Shown here: positions 24,591 to 60,110 of the stretch, one piece after another
Numbering within the stretch: the first letter of the stretch is position 1
How the letters are laid out: the number at the start of each line of letters is the position of its first letter
Source: Halobacterium hubeiense
Lineage (GTDB): Archaea > Halobacteriota > Halobacteria > Halobacteriales > Halobacteriaceae
Direction: 5' to 3'
NCBI RefSeq assembly: GCF_001488575.1
Contig: NZ_LN831302.1
Location: 2,046,001-2,110,000, forward strand
Length of the DNA: 64,000 bases
Made by a program: the position numbers and the translations under genes
The notes under the pieces: model-generated
The model's database searches: none
Told to the model about the DNA's origin: nothing
The model's input: the letters and a program-made list of their open reading frames with translations, nothing else

Positions 24591-24915
24591 ACCGACCCAT
24601 CGCAGCCTCGCGATTTACGCCTATCGACCGACCACAGCGCAGCCGACCAACCAACCGACATCCTGGCGGTCGCCGGGAGAGCTTCGCTCTCCCGAGGCCT
24701 CGGAAATCTCCGATTTCCGGCGGATTGAAAGGGCGAGCGGCGATCGACGACAGCGGACGAAGCAAGCACGCGAGCGGAGCGAGCGCGCACAGCGAGTCCC
24801 CCGAGTCGAGCGACGCGAGGGCTTTCTGGAGGAAACGGAGTACATACTGACGGCTGCGAGAAGCCGACACCCGTGGACCGAAGAGTACGTACCAGCGGCC
24901 CGCGACACAACACCC
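24591..24915. other. Divergent intergenic region trmY/pus10 with paired hairpins
   Basis: The 325-bp region has no coding frame I trust. It holds two adjacent perfect hairpins (24675-24719, see separate entry), then a purine-rich stretch with repeated GCGAGCGGAGCGAGCGC-like bases (about 24771-24790). The pus10 upstream sequence GAGTACATACTGAC (24839-24852) may contain its TATA region, but the 64-base distance to the start would leave a leader. Confidence 0.5.
24675..24719. repeat. Two perfect 3-nt-loop hairpins
   Basis: GGGAGAGC-TTC-GCTCTCCC (24675-24693) and CGGAAATC-TCC-GATTTCCG (24701-24719) each have an 8-bp perfect stem and a 3-base loop, 7 bases apart. Similar hairpins recur at 42732, 45150-45193, 45642-45813 and 59925. 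Confidence 0.7.
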
Positions 24916-42731: not shown

Positions 42732-42750
42732 GGTAGGCGGAACGCCTACC
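42732..42750. repeat. Perfect 3-nt-loop hairpin between pepF and pan
   Basis: GGTAGGCG-GAA-CGCCTACC is an 8-bp perfect stem with a 3-base loop, in the 110-bp gap between the pepF stop and the pan start. It could be a terminator for pepF or belong to the hairpin family seen at 45.6 kb. Confidence 0.6.
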
Positions 42751-44670: not shown

Positions 44671-45576
44671 TCACAGGGAGTCGGCGACGTGACCGGCCGC
44701 CCGCGCTCGCGCACGGCGCTGTTCGCGGAGGTCCGCGAACATCGCCCGGGTCGCGGCCAGCGCGTTCGCCTCGACGGCGAAGTCGAGGTCGTAGTCGACG
44801 TCGTGGAGCACGAGCGAGCCGGGCGGCGCGGGCGTCACGCCCTCCGGCCCCTCGATCGGCTCGGCGGCGAGCAGGCGGTCGATGCGGTCGAAGTTGTCGC
44901 CGCCCGCGACCGCCTGCACGAGCGCGACGACGCGACGCACGAGTTCGCGGCAGAACCCGCTCGCGCGCAGCGTCACCACCAGGAAGTCGCCGTCGCGCTC
45001 GATGCCGCCGGAGAGTTCGCGGACGGTGTTGGCGTCGTCGGGCGTGAGGTTGTGGAAGTCGTGCTCGCCGAGCAGCCGGTCGAGCGCCTCGGCCGCTCGG
45101 TCGTCCGCGTCTCCAGCGTGGCTCGCGGGTCGTTCCTCCCCGTCTTCTCGCGGGCTTCGCCCGCTCGAATGGTCCGAGGGACCCCGTCCCTCGCTACTCG
45201 CTCGTTCCGCGCCCTCGCTACGCTCGGGCGCGAGCCAGAAGTACCGGTACTCCCGCCAGTTCGCGTCGTGGGTCGCGTGGAACTCCGCGGGCGCGTCGGC
45301 GGTCGCCCACGCGCGCAGCGGCCCGGAGAGTTCGCTGTTCAGCCCGGACGGCGTCAGCCACGCGGGCGCGTCGAAGGCGATGGTCTGCGCGCGCGCCGAC
45401 ACGCCGGCGTCGGTCCGGCCGGCAGCCGCGTACCCCGGCGGTTTCTCCCCCTCAAAGGCGTCGAGCCGCCGGAGCGCGCCGAACAGTTCGTCCTCGACGG
45501 TCGTGACGTCGGGCTGGCGCTGGAAGCCGTAGTAGGGGCGGCCGTCGTAGGCGACGCGGAACGCGCGACGGGGCAT
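44671..45576 (-). CDS. truA: tRNA pseudouridine synthase TruA, with an insertion
   Basis: TruA converts uridines 38-40 in the anticodon stem to pseudouridine. The 301-residue protein has the catalytic Asp in AAGRTDAGVSARAQ (about 50-63) and WREYRYFWLAPE (about 105-116), and FCRELVRRVVALVQAV near the end. Between residues about 114 and 156 it holds a low-complexity, charged insert (ERSEGAERASSEGRG... HAGDADD) that is absent from the usual compact enzyme; the DNA of the insert (about 45110-45236) is built from palindromes. The reading frame is open, so the protein is probably made with the insert as a surface loop. Confidence 0.92.
   Translation of the reverse strand: MPRRAFRVAYDGRPYYGFQRQPDVTTVEDELFGALRRLDAFEGEKPPGYAAAGRTDAGVSARAQTIAFDAPAWLTPSGLNSELSGPLRAWATADAPAEFHATHDANWREYRYFWLAPERSEGAERASSEGRGPSDHSSGRSPREDGEERPASHAGDADDRAAEALDRLLGEHDFHNLTPDDANTVRELSGGIERDGDFLVVTLRASGFCRELVRRVVALVQAVAGGDNFDRIDRLLAAEPIEGPEGVTPAPPGSLVLHDVDYDLDFAVEANALAATRAMFADLREQRRARARAAGHVADSL
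45110..45236. repeat. Palindrome-rich insertion inside truA
   Basis: It contains three perfect hairpins: GCGGGC-TTC-GCCCGC (45150-45164), CGAGGGAC-CCC-GTCCCTCG (45175-45193) and CGCGCCC with an 11-base loop and GGGCGCG (45208-45232). The first two have the 3-nt loops of the intergenic family. Length about 126-127 bases, in frame. Confidence 0.6.
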
Positions 45577-45641
45577 AGCAGTACCTCGTAGCCACCCGAC
45601 CGAGTCAGTATCGAAATTGGACGTATCGTGCAGTGGAGCAT

Positions 45642-45666
45642 CCACGAGCGCCGTCGGCGCTCGTGG
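45642..45666. repeat. Perfect hairpin, 11-bp stem, 3-nt loop
   Basis: CCACGAGCGCC-GTC-GGCGCTCGTGG; every base of the stem pairs. Confidence 0.75.
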
Positions 45667-45670
45667 TTCA

Positions 45671-45688
45671 CAGCGCGCTTGCGCGCTG
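45671..45688. repeat. Perfect hairpin, 8-bp arms
   Basis: CAGCGCGC-TT-GCGCGCTG directly follows the previous hairpin by 4 bases. Confidence 0.6.
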
Positions 45689-45733
45689 GCGCCGAACCCA
45701 CCGGAGTTCCCGGGAGCGAAGCGAGCGGGAGCA

Positions 45734-45754
45734 CGGCAGAGCTGTGCTCTGCCG
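45734..45754. repeat. Perfect hairpin, 9-bp stem, 3-nt loop
   Basis: CGGCAGAGC-TGT-GCTCTGCCG. Confidence 0.75.
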
Positions 45755-45782
45755 GAGGTGGGTAACGGCGCTTTTTCCCCAA

Positions 45783-45827
45783 GTTTTTGCGAACGAGGAC
45801 GGCGGAGCCGTCCGAGTGTAGCAAAAA
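45783..45827. terminator. Nested hairpin with T/A flanks
   Basis: The outer arms TTTTTGC (45783-45789) and GCAAAAA (45821-45827) enclose GGACGGC-GGA-GCCGTCC (45797-45813), a 7-bp stem with a 3-base loop. The T-runs either way would act as bidirectional transcription stop signals. It lies just past the hisS stop codon. Confidence 0.55.
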
Positions 45828-45832
45828 GTGGG

Positions 45833-47131
45833 TTACTGGAAGTCGGCGAGCGTCGGTGCGTCCCGGTCGCCCGGGAAGTCCTCGAAGGGCGCGGTGGTCT
45901 GGTCGCCGCTCTCCATGTCTTTGACGGTGACTTCGCCGTTCGCGAGGTCCTGTTCGCCGACGATGACGACCGTCTCGGCGCCGATGCTGTCGGCGTAGTT
46001 CATCTGCGCGCCGAAGCTCCGGTCGGCGACGTCGCTCTCGACGACGTGGCCGCGAGCGCGGAGGTCGCTGGCGACGCGCGCTGCCTCTGCCTCCGTGTCG
46101 CCGACCTGCAGGACGTAGTAGTCCGTCGCGAGGTCGCCCTCCGAGCGGACGCCCGCGCGCTCCAGCAGGAGGTTCAGGGGCGCGTGCCCGGGCGCGACGC
46201 CGACCGCGGGCGTGGGCTGGCCGCCGAAGGACTCGATGAGGTCGTCGTAGCGGCCGCCGCCGAACACGGAGCGCCCGATGTCGCCGGTGGCGTCGAAGCA
46301 CTCGAAGACGACGCCCGTGTAGTAGTCCAGCCCGCGGGCCGTCGTCAGCGAAATCTCGCAGTACTCGCGCACGCCGAGGTTCTCGGCGGCGTCCAGCACG
46401 GCGCGGAGGTTCTCGACGGCGTCCGCGACGCGCTCGGTGCCCGCGAACTCGACGAGCGCGTCGAGGTCGTCGCCCGCGAGCAGGTCGTCGAAGCGCTCGG
46501 CCTGGTCGTAGGAGAGGCCGACCGCCGCGAGGCCGTCGAGGTACTCCGCGCGCTCGATTTTCGCGCGCTTGTCCACGACGCGGATGGCCTCCTCGGTGTC
46601 CACGTCGGCGTCGAAGGCGTTCAGGAGGCCGCCGAGGATGTCGCGGTGGGAGACGCGGAACTCGAAGTCCTCGCCCGTGAGACCGAGACTCGTGAGGCCG
46701 TCGGCGGCCACGGCGAGCACTTCGGCGTCAGCGCGCGGGTCGCTGGAGCCGAAGATGTCCACGTTCGTCTGGTAGAACTCCCGGAAGCGGCCCTGCTGGG
46801 GCTCCTCGTAGCGCCAGAACGCGCGCGTCGAGTACCACTTGATGGGCTTCGAGAGCTCCTGCTGTTTCGCGACGACCATGCGCGCGACCGTCGGCGTCAG
46901 CTCGGGCGTGAGCGCGACGTCGCGGCCGCCCTGGTCGGTAAAGGAGTAGAGCTCGTCGACGATGCCCTCGCCGGACTTGTCGACGTACATCTGCGTGCCC
47001 TCCAGCGCCGGCGTCCCGATTTCCCGGAAGCCGTAGCGGCGCGCCGCGTCCTCGACGGCGTCCATCGCCTCGCGGCGCGGCCCCATCTCCTCGGGGTAGA
47101 AGTCGCGGAATCCCTTGAGTCGGTCGTACAT
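45833..47131 (-). CDS. hisS: Histidyl-tRNA synthetase
   Basis: HisRS charges tRNA-His. It is a class II synthetase of 432 residues: motif 1 around RDFYPEEMGPRR (about 9-20), motif 2 RAFWRYEEPQQGRFREFYQ (about 102-120), HisA signature ARGLDYYTGVVFECF (about 264-278) and motif 3 GRSVFGGGRYDDL (about 286-298); the C-terminal anticodon-binding domain follows. The gene runs toward truA; the hairpin cluster lies between. Confidence 0.97.
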   Translation of the reverse strand: MYDRLKGFRDFYPEEMGPRREAMDAVEDAARRYGFREIGTPALEGTQMYVDKSGEGIVDELYSFTDQGGRDVALTPELTPTVARMVVAKQQELSKPIKWYSTRAFWRYEEPQQGRFREFYQTNVDIFGSSDPRADAEVLAVAADGLTSLGLTGEDFEFRVSHRDILGGLLNAFDADVDTEEAIRVVDKRAKIERAEYLDGLAAVGLSYDQAERFDDLLAGDDLDALVEFAGTERVADAVENLRAVLDAAENLGVREYCEISLTTARGLDYYTGVVFECFDATGDIGRSVFGGGRYDDLIESFGGQPTPAVGVAPGHAPLNLLLERAGVRSEGDLATDYYVLQVGDTEAEAARVASDLRARGHVVESDVADRSFGAQMNYADSIGAETVVIVGEQDLANGEVTVKDMESGDQTTAPFEDFPGDRDAPTLADFQ

Positions 47132-58405: not shown

Positions 58406-59917
58406 ATGGCAGACGCTCCACCGACCGACGAGGGTTGGTTCGTGCTCCACGACTTCTACACCGTGGACTGGGACGCGTGGCGGGACGCCCCCGAACGGGA
58501 CCGCGACGCGGCCCTCGACGAGGCCGAGTCGTTCCTCGCGCACCGCGAGGCGCTCGCGGACGCCGACGAGGGCGACTCCGCGGTGTTCTCCATCACCGGG
58601 CAGGACGCCGACCTCATGTTCGTCCACTTCCGCGAGTCGCTGGACGAACTCGACCGCATCCAGCGCTCGTTCGAGCAGACGGCGTTCGCGGCGTACACGG
58701 AGCGCGCGCACTCCTACGTCTCCGTCGTCGAGATCTCGGGGTACACCGCGCCCGACTACTTCGAGGACCCCGAGAGCGTGGACGCGGGCCTCCGGCAGTA
58801 CTTCGAGAGCAAGCTCACGCCGGAGATTCCCGAGGACACGTACGTCTCCTTCTACCCGATGAGCAAGCGCCGCCAGCCCGAGCAGAACTGGTACGACCTG
58901 CCGCTGGAGGAGCGCGCGGAGATGATGGAGGTCCACGGCGAACTCGGCAAGCAGTACGCCGGGCGGGTCAGCCAGGTCATCGCGTCCTCCGTGGGCCTCG
59001 ACGACTGGGAGTGGGGCGTGACGCTGTTCGCGGACGACCTCACGGACATCAAGGACATCGTCTACGAGATGCGCTTCGACGAGGTCTCCGCGAAGTACGG
59101 CGAGTTCGGCGAGTTCTTCGTCGGCCGCCGCTTCCCGCCGAGCGACCTCCCCGCGTTCATGGACGGCGCCGAAGTCCCGACGCCCGAAGACGAGGGCCAC
59201 GCGCACGGCCACGGCGAGAGCGGGCACGCGCACGGTGAAGGCGGCCACGGCCACGAACACGGTGACAGTCACGGCCACGACGACGGCCACGAACACGGCG
59301 ACGGCCACCACGACCACGGCGACGAGGAGGAGAGCGACGGCATCCGCGGCGAACTCGAAGACCTCGACATCTACGCGGGTCAGCCCCACGGCGAGGACGT
59401 CTACGCGACGGTCCTCTACTCGGAGGCCGACACCGACGAGCTGTTCGAAGAAGTCGAGGGCCTGCGCGGGAACTTCGACCACTACGACACGCACGTCAAG
59501 ACCGCCGTCTACGACGGCCGCAAGACGGACCGCGCCGCCGTCGTCTCCATCTGGGACACCGCCAGCGCCGCCGACACCGCCGCCGGCTTCCTCTCCGAGC
59601 TCCCCGAGGTCGTCTCCCGCGCCGGCGAGGAGTCCGGCTTCGGCACGATGGGGATGTTCTACGAGACCAAGCCCGAACACACCGACGACTTCGTCGAGAA
59701 GTTCGATACTGTGGCGGACGTCCTCGCGGAGATGGACGGCCACTTCGAGACCGACCTCATGATGAACGTCGAAGACGAGAACGACATGTTCATCGCCAGC
59801 CAGTGGGCGTCCAAGGAGGACGCGATGAGCTTCTTCCGCAGCGACGACTTCGCCGACACCGTCGACTGGGGCCGCGACGTGCTCGCGGACCGGCCGCGGC
59901 ACGTGTTCCTAGCCTAA
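58406..59917 (+). CDS. pitA: PitA: fused chlorite-dismutase-like and ABM heme protein with His-rich linker
   Basis: The 503-residue protein has an N-terminal chlorite-dismutase/HemQ-type domain (about 1-250) with YVSFYPMSKRRQPEQNWYDLPLEER (quoted in parts; the conserved motif near 150-175), a linker of about 50 residues (about 256-306) rich in His: EGHAHGHGESGHAHGEGG and DGHEHGDGHHDHGD, and a C-terminal ABM-type monooxygenase domain (about 330-500). This fusion is known from Haloferax volcanii PitA. The N-domain resembles coproheme decarboxylases; the linker should bind metal ions. The promoter faces padR. Confidence 0.92.
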   Translation: MADAPPTDEGWFVLHDFYTVDWDAWRDAPERDRDAALDEAESFLAHREALADADEGDSAVFSITGQDADLMFVHFRESLDELDRIQRSFEQTAFAAYTERAHSYVSVVEISGYTAPDYFEDPESVDAGLRQYFESKLTPEIPEDTYVSFYPMSKRRQPEQNWYDLPLEERAEMMEVHGELGKQYAGRVSQVIASSVGLDDWEWGVTLFADDLTDIKDIVYEMRFDEVSAKYGEFGEFFVGRRFPPSDLPAFMDGAEVPTPEDEGHAHGHGESGHAHGEGGHGHEHGDSHGHDDGHEHGDGHHDHGDEEESDGIRGELEDLDIYAGQPHGEDVYATVLYSEADTDELFEEVEGLRGNFDHYDTHVKTAVYDGRKTDRAAVVSIWDTASAADTAAGFLSELPEVVSRAGEESGFGTMGMFYETKPEHTDDFVEKFDTVADVLAEMDGHFETDLMMNVEDENDMFIASQWASKEDAMSFFRSDDFADTVDWGRDVLADRPRHVFLA

Positions 59918-59924
59918 ATTTTTC

Positions 59925-59953
59925 GAGGAGGGTGCGCGGAGCGCACCCTCCTC
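59925..59953. terminator. 13-bp perfect hairpin with T/A flanks after pitA
   Basis: GAGGAGGGTGCGC-GGA-GCGCACCCTCCTC has a 13-bp perfect stem and a 3-nt loop, flanked by ATTTTT (59918-59923) and AAAAAG (59955-59960). It follows the pitA stop by 7 bases, so it is a likely terminator and a member of the hairpin family. Confidence 0.7.
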
Positions 59954-60110
59954 CAAAAAGTCAGATAAAAAGACCGCGCTCACTCCGTTCGCGCGGGGAA
60001 TCGCCTCGCTACGCTCGGCGAATGCATCATTCACAGTAGTTGCCAGTACTGTTTCTTTATTCAGAGTAAAGAGTGGAACTCCCGTTAAGTGCAGACTGCC
60101 CCTCTATCAA

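Follow-up and report, generated by a model that had tools for sequence, protein, structure and literature searches.

A stop-anchored, palindrome-built repeat inserted between hisS and truA in a haloarchaeal genome

In this study, we describe a cluster of hairpins between the hisS stop codon and the truA start in a haloarchaeal genome of 3.13 Mb (labelled G000). The window analysed is a stretch of 64,000 nucleotides (G000:C1:2046001-2110000), and coordinates refer to it. The cluster is one copy of a composite multi-hairpin element with a repeated unit of 200-280 bases. We hold it to be moderately probable that it represents a non-autonomous, palindrome-built mobile element of haloarchaea which is anchored at the 3' ends of transcription units, acts as a portable bidirectional T-tract terminator and turns over its hairpins at the level of DNA. 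All hairpins named in the initial annotation are indeed in place; what it missed is the composite element with its conserved boxes, the anchoring at stop codons, the insertion into an operon and the class of stable DNA triloops to which the loops belong.

Both hisS (45833-47131), with orthologues in 97 of 98 relatives, and the downstream truA (44671-45576), aligned with TruA from 11 Halobacterium genomes, are open reading frames on the minus strand. They are parted by 256 nt (45577-45832) in the window genome. This spacing is 1-4 nt in 11 further genomes of Halobacterium, H. salinarum (G006, L252) among them, and 0-15 nt in several genera of the family beyond Halobacterium. Named protein relatives assign the window genome to Halobacterium, the nearest HisS proteins being those of Halobacterium sp. 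KA-4 (95% identity), H. bonnevillei (88%), Halobacterium sp. TGN-42-S1 (88%) and H. salinarum (82%). Due to the 1-4 nt spacing in the other Halobacterium genomes, the most parsimonious reading is an insertion directly 3' of the hisS stop codon. The copy split an operon which is kept intact in related species, separating truA from hisS. Matches elsewhere in the genome span only positions 60-256 of the query and delimit the element proper (45638-45832, minus strand). The remaining 61 nt up to the truA start (45577-45637) have no match elsewhere in the genome; this non-repeated stretch is unaccounted for by the mobile-element reading and counts against it. No terminal inverted repeat was seen, nor a target duplication at the hisS-truA site, and this likewise counts against it.

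Read in the hisS sense (minus strand), the window copy consists of the stop codon, 2 nt, CACTTTTTGC, a variable triloop hairpin, GCAAAAACTTG(S)GGAAAAAGC, a branched hairpin, two further hairpins and GGATGC. Box A (CCCACTTTTTGC, 45821-45832) starts directly after the hisS stop codon and carries a T5 tract on the hisS-sense strand. It is followed by the variable hairpin HP1 (GGACGGC-TCC-GCCGTCC, 45797-45813), a TNC/GNA triloop on a C-G closing pair, and by box B (GCAAAAACTTGGGGAAAAAGC, 45770-45790), whose two A5 tracts give a tandem of T5 on the opposite strand. A stem forms between box A and the first half of box B, including its first A5, by pairing of T5GC with GCA5 and of a further 3-4 bp outside; the triloop hairpin caps this stem. 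The branched HP2 (GCGCCG...CGGCGC, 45689-45771), whose branch sequences vary between copies, encloses a nested hairpin (CGGCAGAGC-TGT-GCTCTGCCG, 45734-45754). HP3 (CAGCGCGC-TT/AA-GCGCGCTG, 45671-45688) has a loop of even length, unlike the 3-nt loops, and HP4 (CCACGAGCGCC-GTC-GGCGCTCGTGG, 45642-45666) can pair one base further (12 bp, 1-nt gap). Box F (GGATGC, 45638-45643), which pairs with box E (GTGAAYCG), forms the right end of the conserved element. Folded as single-stranded DNA, the window copy forms four successive hairpins (z = -6.6). Rfam gave no match in the 64-kb window at gathering score and none at E<=5 for 45500-45900.

A search of the genome with the intergenic sequence led to 15 places, and box B yielded 18 matches versus none for the reversed control. 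Across these copies the stop codon is followed, after 1-7 nt, by box A (CACTTTTTGC), then by a perfect triloop hairpin whose sequence changes and by box B (GCAAAAACTTGSGGAAAAAGC). Next come a hairpin, either branched or plain, in many cases GTCGTCGGCC, then the third hairpin, box E, a fourth hairpin and box F (CGRATGC). A T4-T5 tract lies within about 10 nt of the stop codon in all 18 copies, and the long boxes are identical between unrelated loci. Boxes E and F as an independent repeat were mostly rejected, since 10 of 11 E-F modules come after a box B. A second subfamily (TACCTTTTT ... CAAAAAGCTACGCTAAAAA ... GTGAAACG ... CGTATGC) accounts for 17 further box-B matches in the genome; at L075:5560, L076:9872 and L068:8081 it was seen after stop codons with other boxes (TACCTTTTT ... 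AAAAAGCTACGCTAAAAA) in the same plan.

With one mismatch allowed, 64 of the 391 genomes searched in the class, from 17 of 86 genera, contain the box-B pattern, and control matches were essentially nil. There are 30 matches in G011, 21 in G007, 18 in the window genome and eight in G010; genome-wide searches of G002 and H. salinarum gave none. The 18 own sites, compared over five relatives, show a patchy presence, some being filled, some empty and some reduced to box A. Hairpins with GNA loops show the same trend in small samples, being frequent in the window genome and in G113, which belongs to another family. In 40-kb samples of G002, G006 and G010, none closed by C-G was seen; such samples are too small for claims of absence because G010 has its eight box-B matches genome-wide. 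Collections of plasmids, phages and viruses contained no match to an element copy or to the box-B pattern. Between HP1 and box B, L086 and several loci of G011 and G012 carry an inserted module (TCTGCTCACGG-hairpin-CCGTTCGCACGGCCAGC-hairpin-GCTCGGC), which also occurs in G113. The thermosome gene at L169 and L189 (G009, G012) seems to have its end (ATGATGTAA) partly repeated just ahead of the element, with 3'UTR sequence between both copies.

In 18 of 18 copies of the window genome, box A begins 1-7 nt past the stop of a long open reading frame, always in one orientation. Across species and all loci, 58 of 61 distinct copies are no more than 7 nt away from such a stop as compared to 481 of 7218 random intergenic positions (6.7%; p about 4e-63, a value computed although orthologous sites among the 61 copies are not independent). 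Of the remaining copies, one from another family (L103:1368-1521) begins 2-3 nt after a tRNA-Ala gene; the element therefore marks the ends of transcription units and not only stop codons. The gene that follows is co-directional in nine cases and convergent in eight. The stop context CTAA/CTAG is enriched at the own sites (11/18 versus 66/371 genes, p about 1e-4). In more distant families some box-B matches have no stop codon nearby, hence anchoring is strongest in Halobacterium and its relatives. Most genes of the window genome end without an element, which is thus not a general requirement. Likewise, box A as a general Halobacterium terminator was rejected: all eight cases of CACTTTT after a stop codon in our sample belong to full elements.

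It had been proposed to compare the number of hairpins with 3-nt loops with that in dinucleotide-shuffled intergenic sequence, and they proved to be commoner. Our statistics rest on 20 stretches of the own genome plus the window. In an unselected sample of 12 own-genome stretches not picked for matches (46 kb intergenic), nine perfect hairpins with a stem of at least 8 bp and a 3-nt loop were found versus 1.11 in shuffles (0 of 200 shuffles reached nine). Loops of 2 and 4 nt in the same 46 kb occurred two and three times versus about 1.3 expected, which is near chance. The window alone holds three such 3-nt-loop hairpins versus 0.2; a 464-kb sample gave 42 versus 2.15, a figure that is inflated because some of its stretches were chosen at known copies. 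In coding sequence there was no excess of 3-nt loops at stems of at least 8 bp (31 versus 33 for 4-nt loops).

The loops themselves are not random. GNA/TNC loops make up 35 of 42 in the 464-kb sample, 34 of these C-G closed, versus 6 of 31 in coding hairpins; in the unselected stretches they make up eight of nine, all C-G closed. GAA is the commonest (14/42). According to the account given in PMC6479982 of Yoshizawa et al. (1997), GNA triloops form extraordinarily stable DNA minihairpins, with GAA melting 6 degrees C above GTA. The element loops, mostly GNA/TNC closed by C-G, belong to this ultra-stable class. The initial annotation had stated that no conserved stem sequence exists. For the stems this is correct, yet they are flanked by conserved boxes, and the loops follow the pattern described above.

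Compensatory changes maintain the stems. In 28 aligned copies of module 1, which includes HP1, 96.4% of cells are paired versus at most 54% in slid registers, but as this alignment also served to derive the structure, the comparison is biased towards the unslid register, and more weight falls on the double-sided changes: 67 double-sided compensatory cells were counted versus 25.1 in shuffles (0/500). The outer pair is GC in 19 copies and CG in nine, broken in none, and the six inner stem pairs of HP1 show 49 double changes and no single-sided one. At the pair between boxes E and F, C-G occurs in 35, T-A in 15 and A-T in four of 59 distinct sequences. No G.U is present in the six variable stem pairs of HP1, and among 112 triloop hairpins G.T mismatches are not in excess of A.C (GT 2 versus AC/CA 2). 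Because of these two features, the pairing pattern favours DNA-level palindromes, or a copying process writing both arms, over RNA folding. The sense strand carries TNC rather than GNA in 74 of 96 element-borne hairpins (74:22), a bias not predicted by a purely strand-symmetric DNA constraint; shared descent of the copies may explain it.

At orthologous sites filled in both genomes the same inner stem is kept in only 4 of 36 pairs, with boxes A and B retained. Moreover, some copies bear additional hairpins within HP1, HP2 or HP4, and one such nested module is found again in the genome of another family. The stems are therefore exchanged as units. The earlier suggestion that selection acts on the hairpin shape and not on the stem sequence, to which we add a generating mechanism as a second possible agent, is well supported by the strong covariation together with stem replacement at orthologous sites.

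Similar hairpins had been pointed out elsewhere in the window, and their kinship to the element differs. At 59918-59960 (plus strand), directly after the stop codon of the gene 58406-59917, a minimal relative (ATTTTTCGAGGAGGGTGCGC-GGA-GCGCACCCTCCTCCAAAAAGT) shows the same plan of T5, hairpin and A5. The loop class, here as C(TNC)G, is shared by two loose hairpins at 24674-24719 (CGGGAGAGC-TTC... and CGGAAATC-TCC...). The hairpin at 42732-42750 is closed by G-C and shows no clear relation. Those within truA (45150-45164 and 45175-45193) lie in an in-frame insertion of about 36-38 codons (45112-45225, minus strand), which has a similar counterpart in G012 and a shorter one in G002 but none in TruA of nine other Halobacterium genomes. 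In style, it resembles palindromic elements inserted in reading frames. Rickettsia palindromic elements (RPE) are such palindromic inserts, placed in frame inside protein genes; this is the likeness to truA, whereas the main family described here lies outside genes, after stop codons.

Four roles had been put forward for the hairpins: terminators, RNA-processing signals, nuclease-resistant ends or a mobile palindrome family. The anatomy and the hisS-truA insertion support the first and the last. Because box A puts a T5 tract right after the coding region and the other strand bears tandem T5 tracts, a bidirectional terminator is the most likely function, as judged from sequence. The T5 tract past the stop codon would end the upstream mRNA, and the tandem tracts would block transcripts arriving from the opposite side. 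In Haloferax, termination reaches 95% at a T5C tract and was 59% for a hairpin put to the test (PMC7237163). The hairpins would be maintained and exchanged as DNA, since C(GNA)G loops are stable, the arms are Watson-Crick paired, G.U being almost absent, and entire stems are swapped while the site stays fixed. Some enzyme would move the units, and gene-end placement would be a mix of target preference (the enriched CTAA/CTAG context) and selection.

The alternatives have to be measured against the same observations. The element could be a non-mobile terminator or 3'UTR structure owned by the host, having arisen as an RNA element at the individual gene ends and being preserved through selection for RNA folding. 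The fixed position after stop codons and one tRNA, the T-tracts, the strong covariation and the existence of several subfamilies which differ in sequence and share the plan would all suit such a structure, but it would require 256 bp to have arisen de novo inside an otherwise tight operon, and long boxes to be identical at unrelated loci. Moreover, the distribution is patchy (17 of 86 genera, H. salinarum without a box-B match), HP1 stems are nearly free of G.U, most gene ends lack the element and the hisS-truA site already suggests presence and absence of an exact unit at otherwise identical sites. We therefore regard a host-owned structure as unlikely. Even less probable is a mutational by-product, in which fold-back synthesis or template switching makes and perfects short palindromes that spread without function by gene conversion. 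Perfect arms, new stems and triloops would follow from it, and the loose hairpins and those inside truA exist as well, but it leaves unaccounted for the anchoring at gene ends in one orientation, the fixed order of boxes A-F (with E-F modules nearly always after box B) and the T5/A5 tracts.

Mobility might alternatively stem from a known enzyme, the copies being degenerate IS200/IS605 (Y1) remnants moved as single-stranded DNA hairpins by TnpA in trans, like the PATEs of Haloquadratum. The lack of terminal inverted repeats and of a visible target duplication, palindromes near the ends, nested insertions into palindromes and the left-end CTAA/CTAG preference are consistent with this, and PATEs have such traits (PMC3119063). 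However, no match to PF01797 (Y1_Tnp) is present in the element-rich genomes G005, G007, G008 and G012, while the element-free G006 has two, and boxes A and B were not found within 3.3 kb around ten Y1 genes in other genomes. We consider this origin improbable, and a Y1/IS200-IS605 or RAYT transposase as the driver was rejected on these two grounds, the missing correlation with copy number and the missing shared boxes at Y1 flanks.

With a mobile element at transcription-unit ends as the preferred reading, the closest systems in kind are PATEs/SMRs and REP/BIME repeats, and the element belongs with the transposase-free palindromic mobile repeats. Palindrome-associated transposable elements and small mobile repeats of Haloquadratum walsbyi are likewise haloarchaeal, transposase-free and too short to code (PMC3119063). 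PATEs have palindromes near their ends, no terminal inverted repeats, no target duplication and no coding capacity, all of which is found here; SMR-A insertions are nested in palindromes, and SMR mobilisation is unexplained. PATE-type palindromes are tied to IS605 ends; the search around the ten Y1 genes, which covers part of the IS605 ends, was negative for boxes A and B. The element differs by ordered boxes A-F, placement 1-7 nt after stop codons in one orientation, a T5/A5 stem and C(GNA)G triloops with stem replacement. Bacterial REP/BIME repeats with RAYT transposases are short intergenic palindromes downstream of genes which form composite units and have suggested roles in termination and mRNA stability (PMC3733652). 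In contrast, no GTAG/CGTC tag, which REP/BIME repeats have at the foot of a conserved palindrome, recurs in our aligned copies, the stem sequence varies freely, a correlated Y1/RAYT gene is lacking and the host is archaeal; an assignment to REP/BIME was rejected on the tag and on the RAYT/Y1 association. A MITE was rejected too, as the left end CSCACTTTTTGC and the right end CGRATGC are not inverted repeats and no duplication was seen at the hisS-truA site.

Archaeal T-tract terminators such as Haloferax T5C and hairpin terminators (PMC7237163) resemble the element in having T5 followed by G/C just past the coding region and in that hairpins can terminate; the T stretch downstream of the gene is present here. 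They are simple local signals, whereas the element is a repeated inserting unit of ~200-280 bp, whose T-tract precedes the hairpin on the sense strand and whose other strand bears tandem T-tracts. Compared with transposase-free palindromic mobile repeats, the anchoring at stop codons, the T5/A5 module with its putative terminator function and the exchange of stems are new. No description of the element was found in the literature searched, which left out most subscription journals. Halobacterium salinarum is the model species of the genus, and the element may have escaped description because that species shows no match.

Tentatively, and with less confidence than for the reading above, the element may stand for a class of mobile DNA set by shape and not by sequence, which would dock at the ends of transcription units, serve as a two-way terminator and swap its stems as cassettes via single-stranded or cruciform DNA with C(GNA)G triloops, through an enzyme not yet known. 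Insertion right after a stop codon splits an operon, yet the upstream gene stays intact. The element offers a natural setting in which to examine how termination and convergent transcription are kept insulated in archaea. It also provides a clean case of hairpin covariation in DNA, not RNA, and makes the long-standing question of short-palindrome extrusion inside living cells testable in high-salt archaea.
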